Origin: Gammaproteobacteria bacterium MOLA455 | Lineage (GTDB): Bacteria > Pseudomonadota > Gammaproteobacteria > Pseudomonadales > Porticoccaceae | Length of the DNA: 64,000 bases | Direction of reading: 5' to 3' | Assembly (NCBI GenBank): GCA_000511875.1 | Contig: AZIN01000001.1 | Span: forward strand, 813,332-877,331 | In this document: positions 1,287-26,779 of the stretch, in pieces | How the letters are laid out: each line of letters begins with the position of its first letter | Position numbering within the stretch: position 1 is the first letter of the stretch | Notes under the pieces: model-generated | Seen by the model: only the letters and a program-made list of their open reading frames with translations | What the model was told of the DNA's origin: nothing | Databases searched by the model: none | Translations under genes and position numbers: made by a program

Positions 1287-1967
1287 CTAACCTGGGAAGT
1301 TTAAGTCTTTCTTTAAGATATCGGGAGGGGAAGGCAAATCTTTAAATAACCTCCAAACCCAATCTGACTTGGGAAATAAAACGACCCAAACAGTAAGCAA
1401 TATCAAGGAAAAGTAGGCAATGAGACCTTGTTTTCCTACATACCAAGCTTCGACGTCTCCTTTGTATGGTCCAATTACGTTGTCGTAAAAATCTAGCGTA
1501 CCACTATGACCTTCAAGAATATCCTCTTCACCACGAAACACTACCGGCCCAATGCCAGAAAGACCAGGTTTGACCTGTACAATAATATTCTGTGCTTCAA
1601 CGGGAAAAGCATCAAAACATCTTGGCGCCTGTGGTCTTGGGCCAACCAAACTCATATGTCCAATAAATACATTGAGTAACTGCGGTAATTCGTTAATTTT
1701 TGTTTTCCTCAAAAACTTACCAGCCGGTAAAACTCTGGGATCGTTTTTCATAGTAACGGTTCCAGTTCCCATACTCGGACTATTCTTCAGCATAGTTGCA
1801 AATTTAAACAGCTTAAACATTTCCCTGTTTTTACCAACACGCTCTTGGAGGAAAAAAACTTCACCCTCACCAGAAAATTTCAGAAACAACACGATGGGAA
1901 TAATCAAAGGCGAAAGTACAATAAGTGCGAGACCTGAAAGTACTACATCGAAAAATCGAATCAACAT
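1287..1967 (-). CDS. Initiating sugar-phosphate transferase (PglC/WbaP-type)
   Basis: A 226-residue bacterial sugar transferase (polyprenol-phosphate phosphoglycosyltransferase). The N-terminus has one re-entrant/membrane helix (FFDVVLSGLALIVLSPLI), followed by the family core including KTKINELPQLLNV and the SLVGPRP motif. The short length, with no multi-helix N-terminal part, fits the PglC-like monotopic class, which moves an amino-sugar phosphate onto undecaprenyl phosphate and starts repeat-unit assembly. A second hydrophobic stretch lies near 180-200 (LIAYFSLILLTVWVVLF). The start codon overlaps the stop of the upstream dehydratase (TAATG), so the two are translationally coupled. It is the last gene of the glycan operon. 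Confidence 0.9.
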   Translation of the reverse strand: MLIRFFDVVLSGLALIVLSPLIIPIVLFLKFSGEGEVFFLQERVGKNREMFKLFKFATMLKNSPSMGTGTVTMKNDPRVLPAGKFLRKTKINELPQLLNVFIGHMSLVGPRPQAPRCFDAFPVEAQNIIVQVKPGLSGIGPVVFRGEEDILEGHSGTLDFYDNVIGPYKGDVEAWYVGKQGLIAYFSLILLTVWVVLFPKSDWVWRLFKDLPSPPDILKKDLNFPG

Positions 1968-3166
1968 TACATCCTCTGATCAAGATATTTACCGGTCTCT
2001 TTATGAGCAAACTCGGGTAATAAATCAAAAAACAAGTCTAGTACGGCCTGTTTATCCCAGCTACCTTTTTCTCTAAGAGCTTGAACACTAGAAGAAAAAT
2101 CATCTAATTTTTGACTATCGTAAATAGGTTGATTTTTTATAGCACCCACTCCATCAAACCGACTCATGTCGAGGTCTTCTTTATCAGTGAAGAATTCCTC
2201 AAAATCCTTCTCGCCAGTCGTGTCACTGCTAAAAAAATAACAAGGCCACTGTTTCTTAGCGATCAACTCGCCAGCACGATCACGAGCTTCCTCTTCACTA
2301 GCGCAACGAAATGGCTCGTAACCCATTTGGCGTAAATAACGCTCTGCGATATCAGAAAATGTGATGAGATGAAGATGTTCACTTAATTTAGGGAAGAATA
2401 TCTCTCTATTTTTCCCTAGCAATCCGGACATAAGACATAACTCGCCCGATTCTTGTGGTGTTACAAAATACCGACGCACATCATTAGGAGCAGAGAATGG
2501 TTGGCGCTTTGCAAATCGCTGATTAAAACCATGCAGTAAAGAACCATCAGAGAAAGCCACATTTGCGAAACGTGCCATTGAAATAGGCATAGTTTCGCTC
2601 TCACGCATTAAGAACATTTCCATAATACGCTTGCTCGCACCCATCATATTCACTGGATTTGCCGCTTTGTCAGTTGATACGCAAAAATACTTCTTAGCCC
2701 CGTTATCTCGAACAAGCCTGAATGTTTTAATAGTATTAAAAATATTTACGCTCAACATCCGCATTAACGTATATGGGTCTTTCTCGCTTCTCACATGTTT
2801 CAATGCCGATAGATTAAAGACATAATCATACGGTCCTTCTGAGGAGATAAGAGCTTCAAATTCAGGACTACCACAATCAACGGCAAATGTTCTAAATTCA
2901 CCTTCAATATAGCCAATGGTGCTACGAATATCTCGAACCAGTTCAACCATATTATTTTCACTAATATCAACAACATGAAGTACTTTGGGACTTCGCTTAA
3001 AAATCTCTTTAGTTACTGCTTGCCCTATAGAACCGGCACCGCCGATTACTAGAAAACGGCTACTCTTCACCAATGACAATAAAGCATCAGAAAGGACATC
3101 AACATCATCACCAAAAAGCGTTGATGTGCGACCAATAAGGTCTAAGACTCCGGCTTCATTACTCAT
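1967..3166 (-). CDS. UDP-GlcNAc 4,6-dehydratase-like enzyme (CapD/PglF type)
   Basis: A Rossmann-fold nucleotide-sugar dehydratase of the Polysacc_synt_2 family, 399 residues. The NAD site GGAGSIGQ is at 42-49. The active-site stretch STDKAANPVNMMGASKR (about 164-180) has Met at the position of the usual SDR tyrosine. This S-M-K pattern is typical of the C5-retaining WbpM/PglF enzymes, whereas PseB/FlaA1 have Tyr. The expected product is UDP-4-keto-6-deoxy-GlcNAc. It has no transmembrane N-terminal part, so it is soluble. It overlaps the DegT aminotransferase upstream by ATGA and the sugar transferase downstream by TAATG. The exact substrate is inferred. Confidence 0.85.
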   Translation of the reverse strand: MSNEAGVLDLIGRTSTLFGDDVDVLSDALLSLVKSSRFLVIGGAGSIGQAVTKEIFKRSPKVLHVVDISENNMVELVRDIRSTIGYIEGEFRTFAVDCGSPEFEALISSEGPYDYVFNLSALKHVRSEKDPYTLMRMLSVNIFNTIKTFRLVRDNGAKKYFCVSTDKAANPVNMMGASKRIMEMFLMRESETMPISMARFANVAFSDGSLLHGFNQRFAKRQPFSAPNDVRRYFVTPQESGELCLMSGLLGKNREIFFPKLSEHLHLITFSDIAERYLRQMGYEPFRCASEEEARDRAGELIAKKQWPCYFFSSDTTGEKDFEEFFTDKEDLDMSRFDGVGAIKNQPIYDSQKLDDFSSSVQALREKGSWDKQAVLDLFFDLLPEFAHKETGKYLDQRM

Positions 3167-4320: not shown

Positions 4321-5166
4321 TTACAGAGCGACCATCTTTCGTGGCGAAAAGGAGTCGGACCGTGTGGCTTTCATAAACGGCTCCTCTATGTAAAAGTTTG
4401 GGGATAGATCGAGGAGATCTAAATAAACATTCCTAGCAGAATTTAACTCCAAGCATGACAAACGCCCCGCGCCAAAAGGCATAGTCTTAGCCAGATTCCT
4501 TTCGAAAAGAATATTGCTATAAATCTTAGCGCCTCCACCGGGAACAACCCCATCATCACGGATAAATAATTTATACTCATCCTCATATATTTCATCACCA
4601 ACTTTGATTTCCCCAGAGAACTGAAAATCATATCGATAAGGTACCTTAGCTACATCCTCTAGGTAGTGCATGAATGTAAAACATTCATGCACCATTGGCC
4701 CTATAAATAAAAATTTGACCTTTTTACCGGACTTTGACAGCAGATCGAAGGTGCTTCCCTGCCCTACTGAGCTTTTAGCGACATCCGAAATAAATGTTAA
4801 ATCGGAGCCATAACCTATATTAGACATAAGCGGATCAATTGATCTCCTCCAATGGTGTTGTTTTCTGAAAAATTCTGAAAGGGCTCCCATTGAGCTCTTA
4901 GACTTCTCCACATCATACCTTTCTCCATTACAGAAGCTAAAGGTGTAACTCGGCATAAGAACCGTTGCAACATCTAATGAATAGATAATGCTGGCTAATG
5001 CCTCCAAAACTCCGACCTTGCCAATATTCGGATTTGGGATGCCAAAGTTCATTCCACTATGGATATATAAAATATCACAGTCTTGAGCACCAATGTCTAT
5101 AAGCGACTGCTTAATAAACTTTGCATCCATAAAATCGGCATCGTGTTTGAACAAAACTTCCGACAT
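4321..5166 (-). CDS. AAC(3)-family (antibiotic_NAT) N-acyltransferase
   Basis: A 281-residue protein with the fold of aminoglycoside 3-N-acetyltransferases. Diagnostic blocks are the early DILYIHSGMNFG segment, VLMPSYTFSFCNG, and the MGALSEFFRKQ...WRRSIDPLMSNIGYG region that shapes the CoA/acyl site. In polysaccharide loci such proteins acylate amino sugars and are not resistance determinants. It lies between the DegT aminotransferase and the SDR/carrier-protein genes, so it is a good candidate for moving an acyl group onto the new amino sugar. An AGAGG ribosome site lies 5 bases before the ATG. Whether the donor is acyl-CoA or acyl-ACP cannot be read from sequence. Confidence 0.8.
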   Translation of the reverse strand: MSEVLFKHDADFMDAKFIKQSLIDIGAQDCDILYIHSGMNFGIPNPNIGKVGVLEALASIIYSLDVATVLMPSYTFSFCNGERYDVEKSKSSMGALSEFFRKQHHWRRSIDPLMSNIGYGSDLTFISDVAKSSVGQGSTFDLLSKSGKKVKFLFIGPMVHECFTFMHYLEDVAKVPYRYDFQFSGEIKVGDEIYEDEYKLFIRDDGVVPGGGAKIYSNILFERNLAKTMPFGAGRLSCLELNSARNVYLDLLDLSPNFYIEEPFMKATRSDSFSPRKMVAL

Positions 5167-5181
5167 ACTAACCTCTGAAAA

Positions 5182-5919
5182 TTAATTAATTGACGCACCA
5201 CCATCAAGGAACATTTCTTGACCCGTCATCCACAAGGAAGGCTCCAGTAAAAAGCTAATAGCGTGGGTGACATCTCGCGGTGACCCAGTTCCTAAAATAT
5301 ATCGATCAAACCTACTTTTATCTGCTCCCGAGACAAATAGATGGTCTGTCATTTTCGTCCTAACAGCGCCAAGGATAATTGAATTAAACCGCGTCCCAGG
5401 AAATTCTACAGCCAAACCTTTAACCAAACTATTGAGCGCACCCTTGGATGATGAATAAATGGCGTTGCCTTTATCACCAAACTTACTAAAAAACGCAGAC
5501 AAAAACACAACTGACTGGAGAGATCTACGATACTCCTTTGATGTTAGAACTCGCAAAATCTCAATAATACTAAAAACATTAACATTGTATATGGATTGAG
5601 TGTCAACAAGTTTGACTGCCCGAAAAGGCAGAATTTTTAGCTGACCCGCAGCATGAACAACCCTTTCCACCACAATGTCTTGACTCGAAACAAATTTACG
5701 AAAATCTTCATATAAGCTATCCACTTTGGAAAGATCATAGACCCAAATTAAAATTTTGAAGCGCGTACTCAAGGAGTCACTGAGCTCCATCAATTTCTGA
5801 TAGTCCCGACCATGCAAAAGGAGATTTTCCCCTTTACATCTTTCGAGAGCTAATTCCATACCAATAGAGGAAGTAGCTCCGGTAATCAAGGTAAAACCCT
5901 GCGCACTACTTGCGTTCAA
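5182..5919 (-). CDS. Short-chain dehydrogenase/reductase
   Basis: A classical SDR with the NAD(P) site TLITGATSSIG near the N-terminus and the catalytic YSSSK (Tyr-x-x-x-Lys). It ends with the common GQEMFLDGG motif of FabG-like enzymes. No ATG fits; a TTG at 5919 is the preferred start, and TTG codons at 5928 and 5940 in the same frame are alternatives. All of them overlap the end of the upstream carrier-protein gene. Next to a carrier protein and a KASIII it could reduce a beta-ketoacyl-ACP to the 3-hydroxyacyl form. A nucleotide-sugar reductase role is the main alternative. Confidence 0.8.
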   Translation of the reverse strand: MNASSAQGFTLITGATSSIGMELALERCKGENLLLHGRDYQKLMELSDSLSTRFKILIWVYDLSKVDSLYEDFRKFVSSQDIVVERVVHAAGQLKILPFRAVKLVDTQSIYNVNVFSIIEILRVLTSKEYRRSLQSVVFLSAFFSKFGDKGNAIYSSSKGALNSLVKGLAVEFPGTRFNSIILGAVRTKMTDHLFVSGADKSRFDRYILGTGSPRDVTHAISFLLEPSLWMTGQEMFLDGGASIN

Positions 5920-6118
5920 AATGCTCAAGAAAGTCTCCAATAGTAGGAAATTTTACAATATCTTCCGCGGCCATTTGGGTCCCAAGCTGATCCTCCAGAT
6001 AACCAAGTAATACGAGGGCATTTAACGAATCCCACTCCTCTAACTCTTCAAAATTTAATGTCGTATCAATTTGATCTACTTCGAATATTTCCTTTAACTC
6101 ATCTAACAATTTACTCAT
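5906..6118 (-). CDS. Acyl carrier protein (first)
   Basis: A 70-residue acidic carrier protein. The phosphopantetheine serine is Ser31 in EEWDSLNALVLL, the standard DSL motif at the start of helix 2. It is not the housekeeping AcpP, whose sequence around the site differs (GADSLDTVEL in most gammaproteobacteria). The gene lies just downstream of the KASIII gene and overlaps the SDR gene, so it is probably a dedicated carrier for acyl-chain building on this glycan. Cytoplasmic. Confidence 0.88.
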   Translation of the reverse strand: MSKLLDELKEIFEVDQIDTTLNFEELEEWDSLNALVLLGYLEDQLGTQMAAEDIVKFPTIGDFLEHFERK

Positions 6119-6119
6119 T

Positions 6120-7184
6120 TTAAAACTCCATCACAGACATAAACATAGGATTCTCGATATCAATTACCAAGCTTCCCCAAGAAAGACCCACACCAAAACC
6201 AGCGAAGCATAACTTTTTCGGCTTAACGAAGTCATTTTTCTCAAAGTTAGTACACAAAACCGCAGGAATAGTGACACCGCTGCTATTACCATAATGACTC
6301 ACAAGTTTATGAGGCATTTTCTCAATAGGTATCTCCAATTTGTTCGCTAACTTTTTCAACATAAAGGGATTTGGTTGGTGAAAGATAAAAAAATCAACAT
6401 CATCTTTCATTACCTTAGCCTCACTAAGTATCTCTTCAACCAAAGCAGGGACCTCTCTTAGAACAAAGTTGAATACAGCATCACCTTTCATCACGAGATC
6501 ATCAAGACATCTCACATTACCATTTTGGTCTTGAGTTAACTTTTTCGTTTCTGAGCTTGGACGAATTTTCATTCCACCCGCAGGGATCATAAGGGCATCC
6601 CAACCACTGCCATCGATATAGTTTAAAGCTGTTATATCGTTAGAATTGACACTATCATCAACAATAGTGATAGAGGCGGCATCGCCAATAATTGGACGAC
6701 TATTCCGATCGCCCGCACCAACTAATCGACTCAAAACATCGACATTTACAACAGCAACTCGATTTATATTTTCTTGCCAAAGTAGGGACAGAGCAGTTGT
6801 CATTCCCGATATAAAACCAGAACATCCCTGATTGATATCAATACACACCATGTCTTTCTTGAATGGAAGAGCGCCATGAACAACAAAGCTCGTTCCTGGC
6901 ATAAGATAATCGGGTGTCTGAGTGATCAGAACCATCGCATCAACTGAGGATAGATCAAGCTCTTTTGCGTCAATTAAGCTTTTAAATCCGGCTATCACCA
7001 AGTCCGAACTCGAAGTATCAGATGCAACTACCCGCCGCCTATCATACCCCATCACCAGTTTTAACTTTTTTGACTGCGCATTAGTAAAATTATACTGATC
7101 TACCTCACTGTCAAACCGCACTTCATTTTTGGGAATAACTAAATGAACACCGGAAATCTTTCCTCGTGGAAACTTCATAATCAT
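6120..7184 (-). CDS. 3-oxoacyl-ACP synthase III-like (KASIII)
   Basis: A thiolase-fold condensing enzyme, 354 residues. The Cys-His-Asn triad is visible: Cys121 in DINQGCSGF, His269 in FIFHQPNP and Asn300 in HYGNSSG. All three residues being present supports true condensation of an acyl-CoA primer with malonyl-ACP, not just acyl transfer. The ATG overlaps the stop of the second carrier-protein gene (ATGA) and the first carrier-protein gene follows at once, so both carriers are made alongside it. In O-antigen loci such enzymes are known to make short acyl groups (for example 3-hydroxybutyryl) for amino sugars. The product here is not known. Confidence 0.9.
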   Translation of the reverse strand: MIMKFPRGKISGVHLVIPKNEVRFDSEVDQYNFTNAQSKKLKLVMGYDRRRVVASDTSSSDLVIAGFKSLIDAKELDLSSVDAMVLITQTPDYLMPGTSFVVHGALPFKKDMVCIDINQGCSGFISGMTTALSLLWQENINRVAVVNVDVLSRLVGAGDRNSRPIIGDAASITIVDDSVNSNDITALNYIDGSGWDALMIPAGGMKIRPSSETKKLTQDQNGNVRCLDDLVMKGDAVFNFVLREVPALVEEILSEAKVMKDDVDFFIFHQPNPFMLKKLANKLEIPIEKMPHKLVSHYGNSSGVTIPAVLCTNFEKNDFVKPKKLCFAGFGVGLSWGSLVIDIENPMFMSVMEF

Positions 7185-7411
7185 CGCTGCGAAGACTCAT
7201 TCAAATATGCTAATAATGTTACGAAAGACGAGAAGACATCTGGATTTATTTGACTCACTTCTATCTCGATGCCTAACGTAGCCTCGATTTCATCCACAAG
7301 CAATACAATATCTAAAGAATCTAAAACACCATGCAATGCAAAGTCGACAGACCCATCGAATTCTAAATCCGGTCGTATCTCTCTTATAGCATCCAATAAT
7401 TTAATTTTCAT
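7181..7411 (-). CDS. Acyl/aminoacyl carrier protein (second)
   Basis: A 76-residue carrier protein with the phosphopantetheine serine Ser32 in GVLDSLDIVLLVDEIE. The chosen ATG at 7411 has a GGAG ribosome site six bases upstream; an ATG 12 codons earlier lies well inside the formyltransferase gene and is unlikely. It overlaps the formyltransferase by 11 bases and the KASIII by ATGA. Because an adenylation-domain gene lies two genes upstream, this protein may carry an activated amino acid in the way DltC does for DltA. It could instead be a second fatty-acyl carrier. Confidence 0.85.
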   Translation of the reverse strand: MKIKLLDAIREIRPDLEFDGSVDFALHGVLDSLDIVLLVDEIEATLGIEIEVSQINPDVFSSFVTLLAYLNESSQR

Positions 7412-8279
7412 TTTTTCTCCATTTAAGGTGTGATAAACCGCCATCATTAAGTATCAAATATGACACGTCACCAAGTTGACAGAAACCTATTCCAAACGTT
7501 TGATATAATGAGGTAAATTCTTCATGGTTCATTCTATTTGCTCTTAAAATCTCAATATCACCATAAATAGCACCAGCATAGGGGACGGAAAACGCTCGGA
7601 TTTTTCCATATGCTGTTTTAAGACTATCGGAGTTAACTATCGTACGATCATGAGTAGAGATTTTACCATAGTAACTAGATGCAATAACTTCTTGTTCGAT
7701 TCCTTGATAGCCGTCTATACACTTGTTTACACTATTACGCATAATTCTGGGATACACTTTAAGAAACTCCTTCTGTAATTGGTGAATGTAAATATCCTCA
7801 GAGAGATTAATAACAACTTGATCAATGATGCGGCCGACGTCCACATCCTCTTCCATGACATGCACGGTAACGCCCGTCTTTTTATCACCATTGACAATAG
7901 GCCAGTGCTGTGGAGACATCCCTCTATAGTATGGAAGTAAAGATGGATGCAGATTCAAAGCGTTTAGTTTTGCTCTCCCAAAAATAGACCTCGGAATTAT
8001 CCTTTGAAAGTGCGCACTTAAGATAAAATCGTACTCCATAGCAGCGAATAATTTTATTACTTTTTCATCCTTAAATGACGCAATCTGAATTACAGGGATT
8101 TCGTTTTTCCTACAGTAGTTTACTAACTGCTCTCCTGATGTCGAAACTGGTGCTAAAATAATGACAGCCAATGCAGATAAACCTGACTCTTCAACAAGAA
8201 GAGACCGTAACACTGCAAGACTGAAAGAGTCCTCCCCAAAAAAAACAAACGTATGGTTACGCATTTCAAATTGAGTCAT
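7401..8279 (-). CDS. Formyltransferase (Fmt/sugar N-formyltransferase-like)
   Basis: A 292-residue N10-formyltetrahydrofolate-dependent formyltransferase. The catalytic set Asn109-x-His111 in NALNLHPSLLPYYRG and Asp147 in EDVDVGRII matches the Fmt/ArnA/VioF fold, as does the GVTVH strand. It has no ArnA dehydrogenase domain. It overlaps the adenylation-domain gene upstream and the carrier-protein gene downstream. In LPS loci such enzymes formylate 4-amino or 3-amino dTDP/GDP sugars. Lying between an adenylation domain and a carrier protein it could instead formylate a carrier-bound amino acid. The residues alone do not decide. Confidence 0.85.
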   Translation of the reverse strand: MTQFEMRNHTFVFFGEDSFSLAVLRSLLVEESGLSALAVIILAPVSTSGEQLVNYCRKNEIPVIQIASFKDEKVIKLFAAMEYDFILSAHFQRIIPRSIFGRAKLNALNLHPSLLPYYRGMSPQHWPIVNGDKKTGVTVHVMEEDVDVGRIIDQVVINLSEDIYIHQLQKEFLKVYPRIMRNSVNKCIDGYQGIEQEVIASSYYGKISTHDRTIVNSDSLKTAYGKIRAFSVPYAGAIYGDIEILRANRMNHEEFTSLYQTFGIGFCQLGDVSYLILNDGGLSHLKWRKNEN

Positions 8280-9789
8280 AGTAATTCTTTTCGAGGGATA
8301 ACCTATCTATTTTGCCATTTTGGTTGAGAGGAAGAACATCAAACTTAATCCATTTCCAAGGAATCATATACCTTGGAATTCGACTAACGATTTCTTTCCG
8401 TACACCCTTGATATCTAATTCTCCACAATAGAAAGCTATGATTTTTTTTTCCTCATGGAGATAGATAACGCACGCATTATCTATTCCATTTAAACCGACA
8501 ATAGCAGACTCAATCTCTCCAAGCTCGATGCGGTAACCCAAATGTTTTACTTGGTTATCTTTCCGGCCAGTATAGATGAACTCGCCAAATTCATTAATGT
8601 AGCCTAAGTCTCCCGTTTTATAAATAAATTCCTTATAAGAATTATTTAAAGGATTTTTTACGAAAGCTGCGTCAGTTTGATTGCCATTATTAAAATAGCC
8701 TAACGCTAAACTGGCCCCTCTAACACATATCTCTCCAACACTCCCATCTTCAACAGCAGCATCATCAGCGGAAAGTAAAAATACATCGGAATTTCGGCAT
8801 GCTTTCCCTATGGGAAGAATATCATCATCAGCAAATTCGCGATCTACTATATAGAAGGTACAATCGACAGTAATTTCTGTCGGCCCATAAAGGTTCGAAA
8901 AAAGGGCCTCCGGCATTGCTCTTCTCCAATAATTTAAATGCTTAGTTGGCATAACCTCACCAGCGAATAATATTTTAGAAAGAAAAGTAGGCTTTATATC
9001 AGAAAAAACCTTTAAATTTGCCACATTAACAAGAACTGACGGAACCCAAAAGATAAAACTAATCATGCGAACATTTAAATATTCGATTAACTTAATGGGG
9101 TACGTGAATTTTTCCTCCGGAATTATAACCAGTCGAGCACCAACAGCCAACATTAGGTAAATATCTAAAGTGGAGTTATCAAAATAGAATGGTGCCTGAT
9201 TACCAATCACATCGTCTGACGAAATATCATATGTGTCTATCGCCCATTCGATGTAATCAATGATACTCCGATGCGAAATTAACACGCCTTTCGGCGTTCC
9301 TGTAGATCCAGACGTAAAAATACAATAAGCTGGATCCGCGTCTATTTTATTACTTAAAAGGGATTTAAATTCGTGAAATCGCGAGATTTCATTCATTGAT
9401 TCGATTACTTCATCAATGAGTACAACACTAGCATTGCTTTCTAAGTTATCCAAATCAGAGTAACTATTTCGGTCAGAGATAATAACCTTGCAATCCAAAT
9501 TACCTAATATTTTAGATATACGACTAGTTGGCGATTTGATATCTAACGGCACATAAAAGTTTCCACTAAGCAAAACACCAATAAACGAGACCACAGACAT
9601 CTTTGTTTTAGGTAGATAGACTGCGATTGGCGAATTTGCTAGATTAAAGCCGGAAATGCAGTAAGCAATTTCCGCGGCCATCTGTGACAACTCGCTAAAC
9701 TTAATACACCCGGCATCGTCTTCAATGGCAACGGCCTCCGCGTTTCGATCGCAGGTCTCTCCTAGATAGTCGATTACGCTACACTTCAT
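8266..9789 (-). CDS. Stand-alone amino-acid adenylation domain (DltA/NRPS-like)
   Basis: A 507-residue ANL-superfamily enzyme. The P-loop core TSGSTGTPKG is at about 159-168, the A4-type segment FYFDNSTLDIY carries the Asp that usually holds the substrate amino group, and YKTGDLG...GRKDNQVKHLGYRIELGEIE follows. The C-terminal catalytic Lys (about 493) is in NQNGKIDR. The size and features match single-domain enzymes such as DltA that load an amino acid onto a separate carrier. The likely partner is the carrier protein at 7181-7411. The amino acid cannot be predicted with confidence. It starts the module formed with the formyltransferase, carriers and KASIII. Confidence 0.88.
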   Translation of the reverse strand: MKCSVIDYLGETCDRNAEAVAIEDDAGCIKFSELSQMAAEIAYCISGFNLANSPIAVYLPKTKMSVVSFIGVLLSGNFYVPLDIKSPTSRISKILGNLDCKVIISDRNSYSDLDNLESNASVVLIDEVIESMNEISRFHEFKSLLSNKIDADPAYCIFTSGSTGTPKGVLISHRSIIDYIEWAIDTYDISSDDVIGNQAPFYFDNSTLDIYLMLAVGARLVIIPEEKFTYPIKLIEYLNVRMISFIFWVPSVLVNVANLKVFSDIKPTFLSKILFAGEVMPTKHLNYWRRAMPEALFSNLYGPTEITVDCTFYIVDREFADDDILPIGKACRNSDVFLLSADDAAVEDGSVGEICVRGASLALGYFNNGNQTDAAFVKNPLNNSYKEFIYKTGDLGYINEFGEFIYTGRKDNQVKHLGYRIELGEIESAIVGLNGIDNACVIYLHEEKKIIAFYCGELDIKGVRKEIVSRIPRYMIPWKWIKFDVLPLNQNGKIDRLSLEKNYYDSI

Positions 9790-9804
9790 TTAAAAAATAT
9801 CCTG

Positions 9805-10482
9805 TCAACTAATTACAGATTGGGTTGGAAAACGTCGGCAGTATTCAGCCAGATCATACTCAACAATCAACCGTTCATTTCCATTAAAATCCATGGTAGT
9901 ACTCACAACTTTGCCGCCCATCGCTCGAACTGCTTTTCTTACTTTAGGCTGAGAAACATTGACCTCAGATTTAACCGAGCGAGCTCCCATATTGAAAAGT
10001 ACATGATGCCATACACGATGGATTGATCCGGCACCACTTTTTGGGGCTCCAGGTCTCCATGCCCAATATTCTCCGCGAGGTCCTTCTCGAACGATGGCGG
10101 TACTAAAGTTATCGCCCAACGACTGGTAGCGCTTAAAAATATCGGTTATTAATAGCGGGTTTCGGATTAGGCAAAAAATAGCTGAAAGACCTAAATAAAA
10201 GTATCTCCTTTGCATATTTTTCCTTTGCTTAAACGTATCTATGGTCCCGGAATGAAAGCCATAAATTTCATTATCGCTATCCCTATAACCAACTACAATC
10301 ACAGAGTATTTACACTCCAGAACTGTGACATAGTAGCTTGTCAGAAATCTCTTGCCCAACTTCTCCATAAAGCTATCGACCTGTTTATCACCACATAACA
10401 AATGGATCTTTGCTAAGGCCCGGGCATCACTTTTTTTTGCTAACCGAAAGAGGACTTTACTTTGATTAATATCAGCGTTCAT
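9805..10482 (-). CDS. GNAT-like N-acyltransferase
   Basis: A 225-residue protein beginning with the usual GNAT opening FRLAKKSDARALAKIHL and a following helix-strand pattern with VIVVGYRDSDNEIYGF. A pyrophosphate-binding R/Q-x-x-G-x-G/A loop is not obvious; KAVRAMGGKVV occupies the late part. It overlaps the glycosyltransferase upstream by 11 bases and precedes the adenylation-domain gene. With the AAC(3)-like enzyme it gives the locus two candidate acyltransferases for amino-sugar modification. The family call is moderate and the substrate is unknown. Confidence 0.62.
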   Translation of the reverse strand: MNADINQSKVLFRLAKKSDARALAKIHLLCGDKQVDSFMEKLGKRFLTSYYVTVLECKYSVIVVGYRDSDNEIYGFHSGTIDTFKQRKNMQRRYFYLGLSAIFCLIRNPLLITDIFKRYQSLGDNFSTAIVREGPRGEYWAWRPGAPKSGAGSIHRVWHHVLFNMGARSVKSEVNVSQPKVRKAVRAMGGKVVSTTMDFNGNERLIVEYDLAEYCRRFPTQSVIS

Positions 10483-11698
10483 AAGTCTCTATAAACTCCC
10501 TAAATAAGCCATATTGTGTTTTGACATCATACTTTTTTGATATCGTTTTCGAAGCTGTTTGACATGATCCTAATAGAGCCCGATCTTTTGAAAAGACTTT
10601 CAGCTTGTCGATAAAGTCAAGCATATTAGACGCTTCGAAATTAAGACCGACACCTTCTGAGATAGTGAGCGCGCCAACATCCCGCCCCAGGCAGTTCAAA
10701 ATCGCAATCCCAGCTCCCAAATAATCAAAAAATTTGATAGGCATAGCCACAGTCGACCCGGGAACATAAGTTATCAGACCAACATCACAAAACGAATACA
10801 AAGCAGAGAGCTGATTCGCTGGCAGTATGCCAAGAAAACAAAGATTATCGGTAAACCTGTCGTGACTTTGAAAATCGCTAAACCTTGGCCCATTCCCAGC
10901 AACAATAAACCCAATTGATATACCGTTTTTATCACAGTAATCTGATGCAGACAGCAACAAATCCATGTCATACGCATCGCCAAGAGTGCCAGCATAAACG
11001 GCAACTAAATCAAACCGCTGTCTAAAAGATGTTACTCTATCGTCTATCGCTTGATCCAATGGCATATTGTGGTCAGTGTTAGAATTCAGGCCCCAATAAA
11101 CCACCTGTGACTGAACGTTACTCATCGCTTCATTTTTTGAAACTTCGAGATAATCTTTACTTACAGCAACAATTCCGTCGCTGGCTTGCACTTGCTTTTT
11201 TCTCAACCAATATAATGGGAAAAATATAATGCGCGAAAATCGCTTAAGGAGTCTTGGCAGAACAACTGAAAATAATTCCGGCCATAAATCAATAACGTCT
11301 AAAATTAATGGCACAGATAACTCTTTCTTTAACTTAAAGATAGGTCCGCCTGTAAAAATTGCTGGATATGCTAGCACTATTAAGTCGGGCTTTATTTGTG
11401 TTTGCGCTATTTTATAGAGCTCTCGCCCAAACTTCACTTCATATAAGATCCTGCGCAAGGAAATATTTTTATCATAAGCAATACACGGAACAGAAAAGAT
11501 GTTTAGTTGAGCCCCAACACACACCGCTTCAGTCTCAGAGGCTTCACGAAACGTTTTTGTCCTATGGTCGAAGTTAGATATCCACCAACTAACACTATGC
11601 CCGCTCTCCACTAACTCTTTTGCAAGCATATAGCTACGATATTCTCTCCATTTTCCTGAAGGCAACTCTCCATAGGGATTTATTATCCAAATATTCAT
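10472..11698 (-). CDS. Glycosyltransferase family 4 (WbuB-like)
   Basis: A 408-residue GT-B glycosyltransferase. The N-terminal acceptor domain begins MNIWIINPYGELPSG. The C-terminal nucleotide-sugar domain shows FVAVYAGTLGDAYDMDLL-type strands, and the late segment VAMPIKFFDYLGAGIAIL contains the E/D-x7-E-like donor site region. It resembles WbuB/WcaI enzymes that add FucNAc or similar sugars to polyprenol-linked acceptors. It overlaps the upstream gene by ATGA. Cytoplasmic face of the inner membrane. Donor and linkage are unknown. Confidence 0.83.
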   Translation of the reverse strand: MNIWIINPYGELPSGKWREYRSYMLAKELVESGHSVSWWISNFDHRTKTFREASETEAVCVGAQLNIFSVPCIAYDKNISLRRILYEVKFGRELYKIAQTQIKPDLIVLAYPAIFTGGPIFKLKKELSVPLILDVIDLWPELFSVVLPRLLKRFSRIIFFPLYWLRKKQVQASDGIVAVSKDYLEVSKNEAMSNVQSQVVYWGLNSNTDHNMPLDQAIDDRVTSFRQRFDLVAVYAGTLGDAYDMDLLLSASDYCDKNGISIGFIVAGNGPRFSDFQSHDRFTDNLCFLGILPANQLSALYSFCDVGLITYVPGSTVAMPIKFFDYLGAGIAILNCLGRDVGALTISEGVGLNFEASNMLDFIDKLKVFSKDRALLGSCQTASKTISKKYDVKTQYGLFREFIETYER

Positions 11699-22280: not shown

Positions 22281-23000
22281 TCATTCCCTAGGCACTCCAT
22301 CCGCTATAAAGCTTTTCACTTTACTAATATTCTGCCAAAGAAGCGCCCGAGGGACTGAAACATCCATAGCTTTCATACAACGCTCAAGCGGACCGTTCGC
22401 CTCACCTAACCTATCAATCACCTTGGTAAGATCTTTTAAGATGGTCTCACCATAGGCTTCTTTAGATTTCGTGGCCGCCTCGACAAATTCTGTCTTGCTA
22501 AGATTAAGCATGGCAAGGTCTATTACATCCCTGCAATGCATTCCCATATCCAGGCCTCGATCAGAATTGGCGAGTAGCTTACTTGCAGCCATATCTAACC
22601 TAGTTAAGGTGGCGACGCCTAAAATGCTATCTTTCTTTCGTGGTTTTGCTAGCGCAATCCGCCCCTCAAGGACAATCTCAAACTTAATCGGCTTTCCTTG
22701 GACAAATACTTTGGTTCGGATACCGTACTGATCACTGCGAATATCCGACGCTTGAAGCTGGCCGGCATCGGTACTTCTCATTAGCGCTTGAAGGCCCTGC
22801 TCACGGACTAGATTGCGCAGATGTCGATATGAGGCCAAGTCCGACACCAAAAAATCCATATCAACCGATTCGCGGTACTCACCATATCGCAGGGCGATCG
22901 CCGTGCCCCCAGCAAAAAGACAGTTGTGCTGCTTCAGTGAATCCGCATCCAGCGACTCAAGTACTTTTGCTATTCGTTGGTGATGTGGACGAATAAACAT
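22281..23000 (-). CDS. AbiEii/AbiGii-type nucleotidyltransferase (toxin-like)
   Basis: A 239-residue nucleotidyltransferase of the AbiEii/AbiGii family. The active-site pattern GGTAIALRYGEYRESVDMDFLV (about 31-52, here described in two parts: Gly-Gly-Thr then Asp-Met-Asp) is complete, so the enzyme is likely active. Its ATG overlaps the stop of the HTH partner (TAATG). Family members act as type IV-like toxins or abortive-infection factors, some by modifying tRNA. The pair interrupts two glycan-gene blocks, consistent with a mobile cassette. Confidence 0.82.
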   Translation of the reverse strand: MFIRPHHQRIAKVLESLDADSLKQHNCLFAGGTAIALRYGEYRESVDMDFLVSDLASYRHLRNLVREQGLQALMRSTDAGQLQASDIRSDQYGIRTKVFVQGKPIKFEIVLEGRIALAKPRKKDSILGVATLTRLDMAASKLLANSDRGLDMGMHCRDVIDLAMLNLSKTEFVEAATKSKEAYGETILKDLTKVIDRLGEANGPLERCMKAMDVSVPRALLWQNISKVKSFIADGVPRE

Positions 23001-23482
23001 TAAGACACCGCTCCCTCAAACACTACTCCAAGCAGCTCTATAAGCTTCTGCTCACTGTCACTGAGGTTTTTACGATCCAAGAAGCGCTTGTTACGCTCAT
23101 AGATCGAGTGAGCTTCAACAGGAGATAACTCATCGACTCCCTGCACATGCCATGCAAGCTCTTTTAACTGGGGGTAGTCATCTAACAGGATACGAACAGG
23201 TAACTGGCCCACCATGCTCCTCCTTGAATCACACCCTGCATTGCCCTTTTTAGAAAGATGGAATTTCAGATCTAAAGCGCTGATGACATTTAGGTAGGCA
23301 CCCATGCTCACGGTGGACTCCCCCTTCTCAATACGGTGCAGTGTCACCCGAGATATGCCCGCTGCCTCAGCGGCTGCATTTGCCGTAATCTTGAATGACT
23401 TACGGTGCTGCATTATAAACTGCCCTATATGGGCGAGCTGACTAACCGCGTCATCTGATATTTTTTCTATTGTTTTCTTCAT
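23000..23482 (-). CDS. HTH (XRE) partner/antitoxin of the nucleotidyltransferase
   Basis: A 160-residue protein with an XRE helix-turn-helix at about 25-80 (ITANAAAEAAGISRVTLHR then IEKGESTVSMGAYLNV) and a C-terminal part of no clear family. It is translationally coupled to the nucleotidyltransferase. Its promoter is bracketed by a 14-bp inverted repeat, which suggests autoregulation. It is not the wHTH AbiEi fold as far as can be seen, so this is a variant HTH-NTase pair. Confidence 0.75.
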   Translation of the reverse strand: MKKTIEKISDDAVSQLAHIGQFIMQHRKSFKITANAAAEAAGISRVTLHRIEKGESTVSMGAYLNVISALDLKFHLSKKGNAGCDSRRSMVGQLPVRILLDDYPQLKELAWHVQGVDELSPVEAHSIYERNKRFLDRKNLSDSEQKLIELLGVVFEGAVS

Positions 23483-24121: not shown

Positions 24122-25276
24122 TTATTTTGGGTCTGCATAACGGGTCTTGGGCTGAATTGAGGTTAGGTACGTTAGACTGACAAGATAGAGGGAAATCTCG
24201 GCGACAAAAAAGAGGTACCAAAGGTTACTTTCAGGTGGCAGCACATCCATTAGGTAGGCAAGCAACACCACGCCAGAGGTAGAGCCGCTAATGATCAAGC
24301 CAGTGAAAGAATTTGCCATCACCGCAGAGTTAATCCTTAGCTTTATGAGCTGATGAAGACGGTTGTGAAGATGTCCGTTATCCGCTGAAAATGGCGACCG
24401 GCCGGCTCGCCGGCGGCGAATAACGCTGACTAAAAAGTCTATGCACGGATAACAAAACAGGGCCGCCATAAATCCCGCCGAAAAATTGCCCTCAGCCACG
24501 CCCAGCAAACCGTAACCCAGCAGGATTGCCCCTAGCCCATAGCTCCCGGTGTCGCCTAAAAAGTACCAGCCGGAGATAACATTGAAGATAAAAAAGATGG
24601 TGCAGGCAAAAAGAAGAGCCCCGTCCATTGGTCGCCCATATTCGATAAAAAATACGCCGAAAGAAGCGAGGGCAATTCCTGGCACTAAGCCATTAGCGCC
24701 ATCAGCCATATTGAGTGCATTGATAAACCCTACTGCGAACACCGTCACCAGCGCCCAGCCTAAAACAGGCAGAGCTATCAGAGTATCGATAAGGGGAATC
24801 CCCAGCGAGACAGGTATAAACATCGGTGACAACCAGAATAGCGCCCCCAACACCACAAACTTGGCGCCCAGTCTCAGCATGGGAGTCAAAAAATCTGGCT
24901 TAATGTCTTCTGCGAAGCCTAGCAGACAGCAGAGAAAGATAGCGCACCAGAGATATAAAAGGCCCTCGTCTCTAACTGGGCCAGGAGTATAGGGCGATAT
25001 AAGGGAGAGACCAACAATATAGACAATAACGACAATGGCAATGGCGAAGCCACCCAAGCGTGAGGACTCGGAAGCGCTTATGCCGTGTTTAGCAGACGCA
25101 TCTTTACCCAGTTGACTATTGGCTAGGAGAGCCATTAGCAACATAGCCCCGATGCCCGCAGCGCCATAGGTGAGTCCTGCAAAGACAAACATCAAAATGA
25201 GCTTCTGAGATGTCGACTCACATCTTGCGTTTAAAATATGGCCGATAAATTTAACCCGAGTCTTAGCACTTAACAT
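24122..25276 (-). CDS. WecA/MraY-family sugar-1-phosphate transferase (first copy)
   Basis: A 384-residue polytopic membrane enzyme of the UDP-HexNAc:polyprenol-P HexNAc-1-P transferase family. Signature blocks are KHGISASESSRLGG, NALNMADGANGLVPG (catalytic Asp region) and DNGHLHNRLHQL, the WecA-type histidine motif. About ten membrane helices. It would start lipid-linked oligosaccharide synthesis at the inner membrane. A paralogue lies upstream at 25670. The GAGAG before the ATG serves as ribosome site. Confidence 0.88.
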   Translation of the reverse strand: MLSAKTRVKFIGHILNARCESTSQKLILMFVFAGLTYGAAGIGAMLLMALLANSQLGKDASAKHGISASESSRLGGFAIAIVVIVYIVGLSLISPYTPGPVRDEGLLYLWCAIFLCCLLGFAEDIKPDFLTPMLRLGAKFVVLGALFWLSPMFIPVSLGIPLIDTLIALPVLGWALVTVFAVGFINALNMADGANGLVPGIALASFGVFFIEYGRPMDGALLFACTIFFIFNVISGWYFLGDTGSYGLGAILLGYGLLGVAEGNFSAGFMAALFCYPCIDFLVSVIRRRRAGRSPFSADNGHLHNRLHQLIKLRINSAVMANSFTGLIISGSTSGVVLLAYLMDVLPPESNLWYLFFVAEISLYLVSLTYLTSIQPKTRYADPK

Positions 25277-25669: not shown

Positions 25670-26779
25670 TTAATGCTTTGTCAACCGGCCTAGCTGAAAA
25701 TACACCAGTCCATAAAGCACAGATTGGGCTAAAAAAACCATCAGCCAGCGCTCATCAAGCGCCGTTAACCAACCAAAATAATATAAAAAGACAGAGAGTC
25801 CCGAGCTTGCCATAGTGATAGCAACCCCAGTGACGGCATTGGGCAATCCAGCCCCCTTTAGATACCGTCGCAGAAATCCATGCAGGCGATTATGTAAGTG
25901 ATGGTTGTCAGGAAGAAACATCGACTTCCCGCTAAGAGCTCGTCGGCCTATGCTAACCACCATCTCCAAACAGGGGTACGAAAGCGTCGCCGCCAACAGC
26001 CATGGCGATGCTTCACCCTCGCTGACCATGAACAGCCCTCCCAAACTCAGCAAACATGCGACAGTGTAGGACCCTGCGTCACCCAGAAAAAGTCGCCCTG
26101 ACACTAGATTGAAGATCAAAAACATACCGAACCCAATCACCAAGTAACTCCACACTGGGGAGCTGTTTAAAAGACTGAATAAGAAAAATGACAGCAAAGC
26201 AATACCCGGCACCAGACCATTTGCCCCATCAGCCATATTAATGGCATTTAAAAAACCAACACAGAAGATAATGGTCAATACCAACCCGACCAGGGGAATA
26301 GACATCACATAATCTACGGGAGCAATTCCCAATGAGGAGGGTATTAACGCCGGCAATCCGACCAATACAATTGCATAGACTAAGGAGAGAGTCACCAGCC
26401 GAAATCTCGGCCGCAGGCCGCCAATGGATAAATCATCCCAAAGACCGAGAGAGAAGCAAGATGCCACCAGGAACATAGAGAAGTAGCGAACTGGAGCGTC
26501 TTTAAATAAAACTGCGCCAGGGCTTAAATACTCAGAGAATGCCATCAAAGTGCAGGTTATGACAACCACTGCGACCCCGCCAAGGCGAGACGATGGCCTC
26601 GTTGAAATACCGTGTTTAGCTGTGGCGTCTGGAGCGTAACTCTGCCCCATTAACCACTGCATAAACAGCATTCCCAGTATACCGGCCAAACCAAAATAGA
26701 TAGCTGCGAACACCAATATAACAAAGAGCTTGCGCCCTTCTCTCTGTGAGAACGAAGAAGCGCTCACAACCACGTCCAT
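25670..26779 (-). CDS. WecA/MraY-family sugar-1-phosphate transferase (second copy)
   Basis: A 369-residue polytopic enzyme clearly paralogous to the gene at 24122: both have ATAKHGIS or equivalent, NAxNMADGANGLVPG and DNxHLHNRLH. All the diagnostic residues are present, so it is probably active. The start immediately follows the Wzz stop. Tandem copies may act on different UDP-sugars or on two glycans. It is known that some EPS loci carry one such enzyme as the initiating transferase; two in a row is less usual. Confidence 0.88.
   Translation of the reverse strand: MDVVVSASSFSQREGRKLFVILVFAAIYFGLAGILGMLFMQWLMGQSYAPDATAKHGISTRPSSRLGGVAVVVITCTLMAFSEYLSPGAVLFKDAPVRYFSMFLVASCFSLGLWDDLSIGGLRPRFRLVTLSLVYAIVLVGLPALIPSSLGIAPVDYVMSIPLVGLVLTIIFCVGFLNAINMADGANGLVPGIALLSFFLFSLLNSSPVWSYLVIGFGMFLIFNLVSGRLFLGDAGSYTVACLLSLGGLFMVSEGEASPWLLAATLSYPCLEMVVSIGRRALSGKSMFLPDNHHLHNRLHGFLRRYLKGAGLPNAVTGVAITMASSGLSVFLYYFGWLTALDERWLMVFLAQSVLYGLVYFQLGRLTKH

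Follow-up and report, generated by a model that had tools for sequence, protein, structure and literature searches.

A run of closely spaced minus-strand genes in a 64,000-nucleotide stretch of the Gammaproteobacteria bacterium MOLA455 genome (the window; contig AZIN01000001.1, positions 813,332 to 877,331; source genome of 2.6 Mb in 4 contigs) appears from its sequence, with somewhat more confidence than doubt, to encode a single linear, carrier-dependent route to an unusual N-acyl group of a surface glycan. In the proposed pathway, a stand-alone amino-acid adenylation domain (A) would activate an alpha-amino acid and load it onto a first carrier protein (carrier 1, PCP1), and a formyltransferase would formylate the amine of the aminoacyl group held there. 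A beta-ketoacyl-acyl carrier protein synthase III (KASIII) would take the formyl-aminoacyl group from carrier 1 and condense it with a malonyl unit on a second carrier (carrier 2, ACP2), and a short-chain dehydrogenase/reductase (SDR) would reduce the beta-keto group. The resulting gamma-formamido-beta-hydroxyacyl (statine-type) group would be moved by an AAC(3)-like acyltransferase (NAT) to the 4-amino group of a sugar nucleotide supplied by the neighboring dehydratase and aminotransferase, and a PglC-type enzyme would then place the acylated sugar on a lipid carrier. Gene content, gene order, conserved residues, the grouping of the KASIIIs, and the exchange of cap and loader genes are established, whereas we infer all of the chemical steps. 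The genes of the operon are as follows.

9805-10482 (-): possible GCN5-related N-acetyltransferase (GNAT), 225 aa, upstream of A
8266-9789 (-): stand-alone amino-acid adenylation domain (A); AMP-binding, 199.3 bits; TIGR01733, 329.9 bits
7401-8279 (-): cap-slot formyltransferase, between the A and carrier 1 genes; Formyl_trans_N, 89.7 bits
7181-7447 (-): carrier 1 (PCP1); PP-binding, 26.5 bits; phosphopantetheine Ser in L-D-S-L-D
6120-7184 (-): KASIII; N and C parts of ACP_syn_III; Cys-His-Asn triad
5906-6118 (-): carrier 2 (ACP2); PP-binding, 38.6 bits; Ser in W-D-S-L
5182-5940 (-): SDR, presumed beta-keto reductase; Pfam SDR, with YmfI/FabG-type NCBIfam models below cutoffs
4321-5166 (-): AAC(3)-fold N-acyltransferase (NAT); Antibiotic_NAT, 57.2 bits
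3163-4299 (-): DegT sugar aminotransferase, 357.6 bits; best NCBIfam match PseC, below cutoff
1967-3166 (-): nucleotide-sugar dehydratase (Polysacc_synt_2), 135.2 bits
1287-1967 (-): PglC-type initiating sugar-phosphate transferase; Bac_transf, 157.2 bits

KASIII between two carriers in a conserved module

The first lead to relatives came from tblastn against plasmids, where matches to A (43%), KASIII (44%), and NAT (37%) were found together in Paenibacillus cellulosilyticus. A two-row KASIII alignment, which included no A, formyltransferase, or carrier sequence, was then run against the genome_contigs collection (described as holding 84,980 species genomes) and returned 21 loci. A 17-row KASIII profile applied to the groups around loci L013 and L029 matched 6/299 and 7/295 genomes, respectively, seeds counted. 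Duplicates (L030, from the same species as L009; L118 = L033; L122 = L019; G1065 = L015) and seeds (G460 = L013; G461 = L029) were merged to give 30 distinct loci: the window, L009, L013-L029, L031-L033, L119-L121, and L123-L127. As the genome scan ran on two short peptide patterns, members are missed; the loci are also linked by descent and transfer, so that the counts are not independent.

The sequence-only reading made earlier of the eight genes at 4321-10482 had proposed a search for the same gene order in other genomes. The core order common to the relatives, A - [cap gene] - carrier 1 - KASIII - carrier 2, often then SDR and acyltransferase, was found to recur in Bacteroidota and Firmicutes, and because it recurs in other phyla it is not due to chance. 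Named strains that carry the locus include Paucihalobacter ruber CWB-1, Cerina litoralis F89, and, for the FkbH type, Maribacter aquimaris ANRC-HE7. Carrier 1 lies upstream of KASIII in 28/30 loci and within 15 nucleotides (nt) of it in 27/30 (26/28 relatives, 25 of them within 15 nt, plus the window and L009 by coordinates). A is upstream of KASIII in 26/30 loci (24/28 relatives, the window, and L009); of the four loci without it, L017 and L120 have FkbH loaders, and the contigs of L028 and L123 begin after the expected position of A. ACP2 follows KASIII within 60 nt in 24/30 loci (23/28 relatives and the window), so that KASIII stands between two carriers. Since carrier 1 comes before it, carrier 2 comes after it, and the condensing triad is present, KASIII would draw its starter from carrier 1 and leave its product on carrier 2.

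The order in L020, a Sphingobacteriaceae metagenome-assembled genome, is that of the window: glycosyltransferase, GNAT, A, formyltransferase, carrier 1, KASIII, carrier 2, SDR, NAT, DegT, and PglC. It differs by an extra metallo-beta-lactamase-fold gene, by the lack of a dehydratase match, and by a different order of the upstream DUF6492 and flippase genes. NAT was found in 10/30 loci (window, L009, L016, L020, L021, L026, L027, L028, L032, and L127), and a PglD/NeuD-like hexapeptide protein occurs somewhere in the fetched stretch of 17/29 relatives. Both are present in L127 and neither in L017, L023, L025, and L031, the last three being short contigs. In 21/29 relatives, the fetched stretch matched one or more glycan genes of the query set; the eight without a match are the short contigs L023, L025, and L031, the Prevotella/Prevotellaceae loci L021, L027, L028, and L032, and Paenibacillus. 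A Capsule_synth gene comes next in L021.

The control set comprised every locus, 31 in all, that the 17-row profile matched at E 1e-75 in 395 genomes of L020's class, seeds excluded; these loci carry sister KASIIIs scoring 256 to 292 bits. Neither A nor carrier 1 was adjacent to KASIII in any of the 31 (0/31; L096 is cut just upstream of KASIII), and an A-like gene lay several kb off in L075, L077, and L100. In 28/31 controls (not L093, L095, and L096), an ACP gene precedes KASIII at a distance of 300 nt or less. The window departs from this layout: its KASIII is flanked by PCP1 on the upstream side and ACP2 on the downstream side, and an A domain is present in addition. The linkage of carrier 1 to KASIII in 28/30 modules versus 0/31 controls gave a Fisher p of 2e-15, calculated on loci that are not independent. 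NF009519 (PRK12880), considered because of a possible likeness to the Campylobacter jejuni flagellin locus (Cj1297-Cj1308), had no match in the 14 control genomes, and among the literature listed for five of those locus tags nothing was judged to bear on function.

The KASIII phylogeny was consistent with this separation. The 29 module KASIIIs and a second KASIII from L025 formed a 30-row group with support of 100, and all 49 control KASIIIs fell outside it; without the second L025 copy the support was 78. This tree was made by a quick method with support from the Shimodaira-Hasegawa-like approximate likelihood ratio test only, included the FkbH loci L017 and L120, and left out L018, whose KASIII (10001-11068, on a Winogradskyella contig) reads as two open reading frames (ORFs); a first tree had 20 rows. 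Distance correlations, drawn from unequal subsets of loci, were 0.78 for KASIII and PCP1, 0.56 for KASIII and ACP2, 0.90 for ACP2 and SDR, and 0.95 for ACP2 and NAT, and agree in part with the proposed linear mechanism. The loss of the coenzyme A (CoA)-stacking Trp of FabH (no Trp in the segment in 17/17 module KASIIIs) was rejected as evidence because the Trp is likewise missing from the KASIII of the Azospirillum locus L012, next to which no A domain is listed.

Several relatives have further genes in or near the module. The second KASIII of the module group in L025 (4463-5536) lies inside one operon with the first, and the pair suggests two extension rounds. A nitroreductase-family gene between carrier 1 and KASIII in L024 (8970-9986) perhaps oxidizes the carrier-bound group. 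A metallo-beta-lactamase-fold hydrolase, possibly an editing thioesterase, is present in the stretch of 11/29 relatives (L016, L019, L020, L121, and others) and was not among the Pfam results for the window operon.

Exchangeable cap and loader genes

The position directly between A and carrier 1 is occupied by a formyltransferase in 8 loci and by a GNAT-type gene in 9 and is empty in 5; both kinds of cap gene together in the slot were seen in 0/30 loci. In two further loci, the place of A and carrier 1 before the module KASIII is taken by an FkbH-type loader and a different ACP. The assignments are as follows.

Formyltransferase in the slot (8): window, L013, L014, L020, L025, L029, L121, L124
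GNAT-type gene in the slot (9): L009, L019, L021, L026 (Pfam); L125 (NCBIfam, below cutoff); L023, L123, L126, L127 (slot profile only)
Empty slot (5): L015, L018, L022, L033, L119
FkbH loader and ACP: L017, 7443-9411; L120, 6878-8882

In L123, A is cut off by the contig and the slot holds a GNAT-type protein. Besides the two FkbH loci, the rest of the 30 comprises one cut locus (L028) and five with additional genes in this interval that are weighed below. Seven of the slot formyltransferases form one clade (support, 99/98). The eighth, from L121, joined the other seven in 0/200 bootstrap trees, although it sits on a long branch and its own placement is weak. Against the slot profile it scored 82 bits, whereas six other formyltransferases reached 107 to 164 bits and two from capsule loci reached 75 and 57 bits. 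Together, these findings suggest a second recruitment to the equivalent slot. The L017 loader matched the FkbH model with 305 bits, and the L120 loader matched the L017 protein with 959 bits. This replacement of loader and carrier ahead of a module KASIII fits a starter-loading role for A and carrier 1. In L120, the KASIII is preceded by a hotdog/hydratase-like gene and an SDR.

Queries with the formyltransferase found almost nothing beyond the window or the seed. At E 1e-30, the window alone was matched among 369 genomes of its class, and at E 1e-20, only the window and an ArnA-like protein of 744 aa were matched among 94 relatives. In 11 plasmid records, the proteins matched were Fmt, ArnA, a further formyltransferase, or without annotation, and identity stayed below 60% throughout. 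A profile of 6 slot formyltransferases (E 1e-65, 395 genomes) returned its seed alone. The formylating version is therefore rare among the genomes sampled, and the KASIII is the useful query.

Identity and conserved residues of the enzymes

All eight minus-strand ORFs were present at the coordinates described in the sequence-only reading, and the order and overlaps given there were confirmed. A and the formyltransferase overlap by 14 nt and PCP1 and KASIII by 4 nt, KASIII and ACP2 are separated by 1 nt, ACP2 and SDR overlap, and 21 nt lie between NAT and DegT. From 10482 to 1287, that is, from the possible GNAT through the PglC-type gene, the minus strand has only short gaps or overlaps. Family models (Pfam and NCBIfam) back seven of the eight genes, the exception being the possible GNAT.

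The earlier label "DltA-like" for the adenylation gene was not upheld, as the DltA models were missed (289.5 versus 559.85 bits and 306.4 versus 476 bits); the general amino-acid adenylation model TIGR01733 was exceeded (329.9 versus 317.4 bits). The ten-residue pocket code, read with motif anchors set by eye, is D-N-L-F-L-A-L-V-D-K in the window, with Asp at position 235. Asp235 of adenylation domains binds the alpha-amine, and since by this rule its presence in 26/26 A domains points to such a substrate, the A domains are indicated to handle an alpha-amino acid. Of the A-domain codes, 15 read DNLF(L/F/I)ALVDK, 10 have Trp in the fifth position (DIFFWALLDK and related codes), and that of L119 (DMLFLGMGTK) is odd. 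Both main types occur with formyltransferase slots and with GNAT slots. To our knowledge these codes match none described and so point to no particular amino acid.

The carrier serines reported earlier, Ser32 of PCP1 and Ser31 of ACP2, agree with the sequences, the numbering of Ser32 assuming a start at Met13 of the listed ORF (about position 7411), which is the likely start. The best NCBIfam match of carrier 1 was DltC, below cutoff (25.6 versus 68 bits). The full KASIII triad that had been noticed corresponds to Cys121-His269-Asn300 and was invariant in 17/17 aligned module KASIIIs. Asn109, His111, and Asp147 of the formyltransferase, which we take to be the catalytic residues, were invariant in 6/6 aligned slot formyltransferases.

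The assignment of the 9805-10482 protein as a GNAT found no backing from family models, as neither Pfam nor NCBIfam gave a match at 1e-3, but was favored by its model, whose matches were mostly N-acetyltransferases. The predicted structure was poor, with a mean predicted local distance difference test score (pLDDT) of 45.7 and 5 PDB matches at E <= 0.001, and was deemed usable as no more than a hint; among the 50 matches listed, most titles were N-acetyltransferases (NatA, SpeG, PseH, RimI, and others) and a few were uninformative. A homologue of 37% identity occupies the equivalent position in L020, and no significant match to the slot-GNAT profile was found (E 0.097). From the model, the protein is likely a GNAT.

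NAT passed the Pfam Antibiotic_NAT cutoff (57.2 versus 25 bits), and its model (pLDDT, 75.9) gave AAC(3)-IVa as the best PDB match (E 1e-14; TM-score, 0.66). His167 was invariant in 10/10 aligned NATs and may correspond to the catalytic His of AAC(3). Because NAT scored 27.7 versus 270 bits on the AAC(3) equivalog model, a role in aminoglycoside resistance is unlikely, and the enzyme is presumed to transfer an acyl group to an amino sugar.

Weighing of alternative pathways

The sequence-only reading had A and one carrier activating and perhaps formylating an amino acid, a short acyl chain being built separately on the other carrier, and the product passing to an amino sugar. Gene order supports the activation on one carrier and makes an amino sugar the likely final acceptor, and the position of the formyltransferase gene between A and carrier 1 in 8/30 loci links a putative formylation to that carrier. 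The separate chain fared less well. It corresponds closely to two parallel routes. In one, an amino acid would be loaded by A onto carrier 1; in the other, KASIII, carrier 2, and SDR would produce 3-hydroxybutyrate out of acetyl-CoA and malonyl units. The two groups would be coupled through an amide, which a slot GNAT could form, or placed on two different amino groups. Coupled groups of this kind are known, among them the N-(3-hydroxybutyryl)-alanyl of the Escherichia coli O123/Salmonella O58 glycan. Described examples are N-[(S)-3-hydroxybutyryl]-D-alanyl on 4-amino-4-deoxyquinovose (Qui4N) in E. coli O123 and, in a marine review, N-[(R)-3-hydroxybutyryl]-L-alanyl on Qui4N (available parts of PMC10609480 and PMC3210612). 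Parallel routes are nevertheless considered unlikely. The KASIII group is bound to carrier 1 (28/30 loci versus 0/31 controls) and not merely to ACP2 and SDR, FkbH loaders twice substitute for A and carrier 1 ahead of a module KASIII, a formyltransferase in the slot would block the alpha-amine, and ten loci have a module KASIII and no SDR match. A single linear route, with the capped aminoacyl group as the starter that KASIII would extend, is the simpler reading of a KASIII group that goes with carrier 1 and of loading genes that are swapped as a cassette in two loci.

Still less probable is a formyltransferase that, like ArnA, VioF, and WlaRD, modifies a sugar amine and has no connection to carrier 1. 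Its best solved relatives do include ArnA and sugar N-formyltransferases, and a sugar aminotransferase is present in the locus. However, its gene lies exactly between A and carrier 1 in 8/30 loci, a GNAT-type gene lies there in 9 and the two never together, and the sugar amine is needed for the acyl group. The least probable of the alternatives, by a little, is a KASIII that serves as an acyltransferase without condensation and hands the capped aminoacyl group of carrier 1 on to carrier 2 or the sugar. KASIII-fold acyltransferases such as CerJ and ChlB3 are known, and the ten loci without an SDR match would suit such a transfer. Transferring KASIII homologues carry Asp instead of Asn, whereas the condensing Cys-His-Asn triad was invariant here in all 17 aligned sequences, and the SDR in the remaining loci (the cut L023 excepted) suggests a keto group.

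Several observations weigh against the linear pathway. A correlates only moderately with its presumed partners (0.49 with PCP1 and 0.48 with KASIII) compared to 0.80 with SDR and 0.83 with NAT, and five loci are without any cap gene. In L016, L024, L027, L031, and L032, A and carrier 1 are separated by other carrier and KAS genes; these five also hold a GNAT-like protein, by the slot profile alone and with two of them used to build that profile, and no match was found in Pfam for those of L016, L024, and L032 or in NCBIfam for those of L024 and L027. No SDR was matched in the fetched stretch of 10/30 loci (L013, L014, L015, L017, L018, L022, L024, L029, L033, and L119), and L023 is cut, although all other loci, the window and L009 included, have one; in the SDR-less loci the beta-keto group may stay or a housekeeping enzyme may reduce it. 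No glycan gene was matched near the Paenibacillus module (L009). Finally, the known N-(3-hydroxybutyryl)-alanyl glycans could arise otherwise from these kinds of genes (PMC10609480 and PMC3210612, as available in part).

Relation to known systems

The acylation of 4-amino sugars by ACP, KAS, and SDR enzymes has already been predicted in print. According to the accessible part of PMC6519341, the wfpC-wfpG genes of the Flavobacterium psychrophilum O-antigen R1 encode an ACP, 3-ketoacyl-ACP synthases, a reductase, and a dedicated acyltransferase predicted to acylate a 4-amino sugar, and a PglD homologue was predicted to move 3,5-dihydroxyhexanoyl from the ACP to UDP-Qui2NAc4N; adenylation domains, aminoacyl carriers, and cap enzymes go unmentioned in that part. 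These gene kinds are those of the control loci, and the control KASIIIs of wfp-type layout fell outside the module group, the likeness to wfp being one of gene kinds and not of protein comparison. As in type II fatty acid synthase-like acyl modules, a dedicated ACP, KASIII, and SDR are found in the window beside a sugar aminotransferase and an acyltransferase.

The window also has the features of LgrA, the initiation module of linear gramicidin synthetase, in which adenylation, formylation, and carrier functions are combined: an Asn-His-Asp formyltransferase and an Asp235 adenylation domain next to a carrier. It differs in that these are separate ORFs and are followed by a KASIII instead of the condensation domain of a nonribosomal peptide synthetase (NRPS), a domain absent from the Pfam results for the window proteins. 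Among the PDB matches of A, LgrA ranked first on whole-sequence score, since it has two matching domains; the better one scored 195 bits, compared to 210 bits for Txo2. For the formyltransferase, Fmt (73.6 bits) and ArnA (71.3 bits) scored above LgrA (46 bits).

A stand-alone A with a small carrier is likewise found in DltA-DltC D-alanylation, but the window proteins scored far under the DltA and DltC cutoffs, and no DltB or DltD family match was obtained by Pfam among the 30 window proteins scanned. In RedM-RedO-RedX of undecylprodigiosin, a stand-alone A and carrier feed a KASIII-like enzyme, but there the prolyl group is oxidized to pyrrole and the product is an antibiotic and not a glycan. 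Capping of a beta-aminoacyl-ACP starter before chain extension is described for vicenistatin, where, as proposed for the window, a stand-alone adenylation enzyme works with an ACP (VinL), the amine is capped by VinM, and polyketide extension follows (PMC11284099, available part). The window differs in its A of alpha-amino-acid type, its predicted formyl cap (GNAT in relatives) in place of an alanyl cap, a KASIII in place of a modular polyketide synthase (PKS), and a presumed glycan product.

Aminoacyl and 3-hydroxybutyryl-alanyl glycan groups are already known (PMC10609480 and PMC3210612), as are flagellin islands with an ACP, a reductase, and an AMP-dependent synthetase or CoA ligase (PMC7874193 and PMC4875605), each source being available in part. 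The sequence-only reading knew of no pathway with this exact gene set, and in the open-licence literature we likewise found no description of a glycan locus in which a KASIII is supplied by an adenylation domain, a cap enzyme, and an aminoacyl carrier.

Surroundings of the operon

The region upstream of the operon encodes a glycosyltransferase, DUF6492, a 441-aa protein that has no Pfam match, a MurJ/Wzx-like flippase, and sugar-nucleotide enzymes, followed farther upstream by Wzz and polysaccharide export genes; judged by gene content, this is a Wzx/Wzy-type polysaccharide locus. In addition to the PglC-type gene, two separate Glycos_transf_4 (WecA-like) genes were observed (24122-25276 and 25670-26779, both on the minus strand). 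An AbiEii nucleotidyltransferase and helix-turn-helix (HTH) pair at 22281-23482 (-), within the polysaccharide region, resembles a type IV toxin-antitoxin system. Next to the 3' end of the operon are a tyrosine recombinase (Phage_integrase; 411-1274, +) and a small ORF, HTH-like by eye (105-350, -). Since the KASIII was found in 0/49 other genomes of the genus searched, these two genes may be relevant to mobility.

Implications

We regard it as an evenly balanced proposition that a family of mix-and-match lines in Bacteroidota, Firmicutes, and the window genome makes statine-like gamma-amino-beta-hydroxy N-acyl groups for surface glycans, with aminoacyl-carrier KASIIIs, swappable loaders (adenylation or FkbH), and swappable N-caps (formyl, GNAT-type, or none). 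If this is true, a small NRPS-PKS-like line of single-gene parts would decorate bacterial surface sugars, and a class of glycan acyl groups would be predictable from gene order alone. The swaps of cap or loader genes would then suggest antigen variation, and the compact, separable enzymes would lend themselves to the production of gamma-amino-beta-hydroxy acids.

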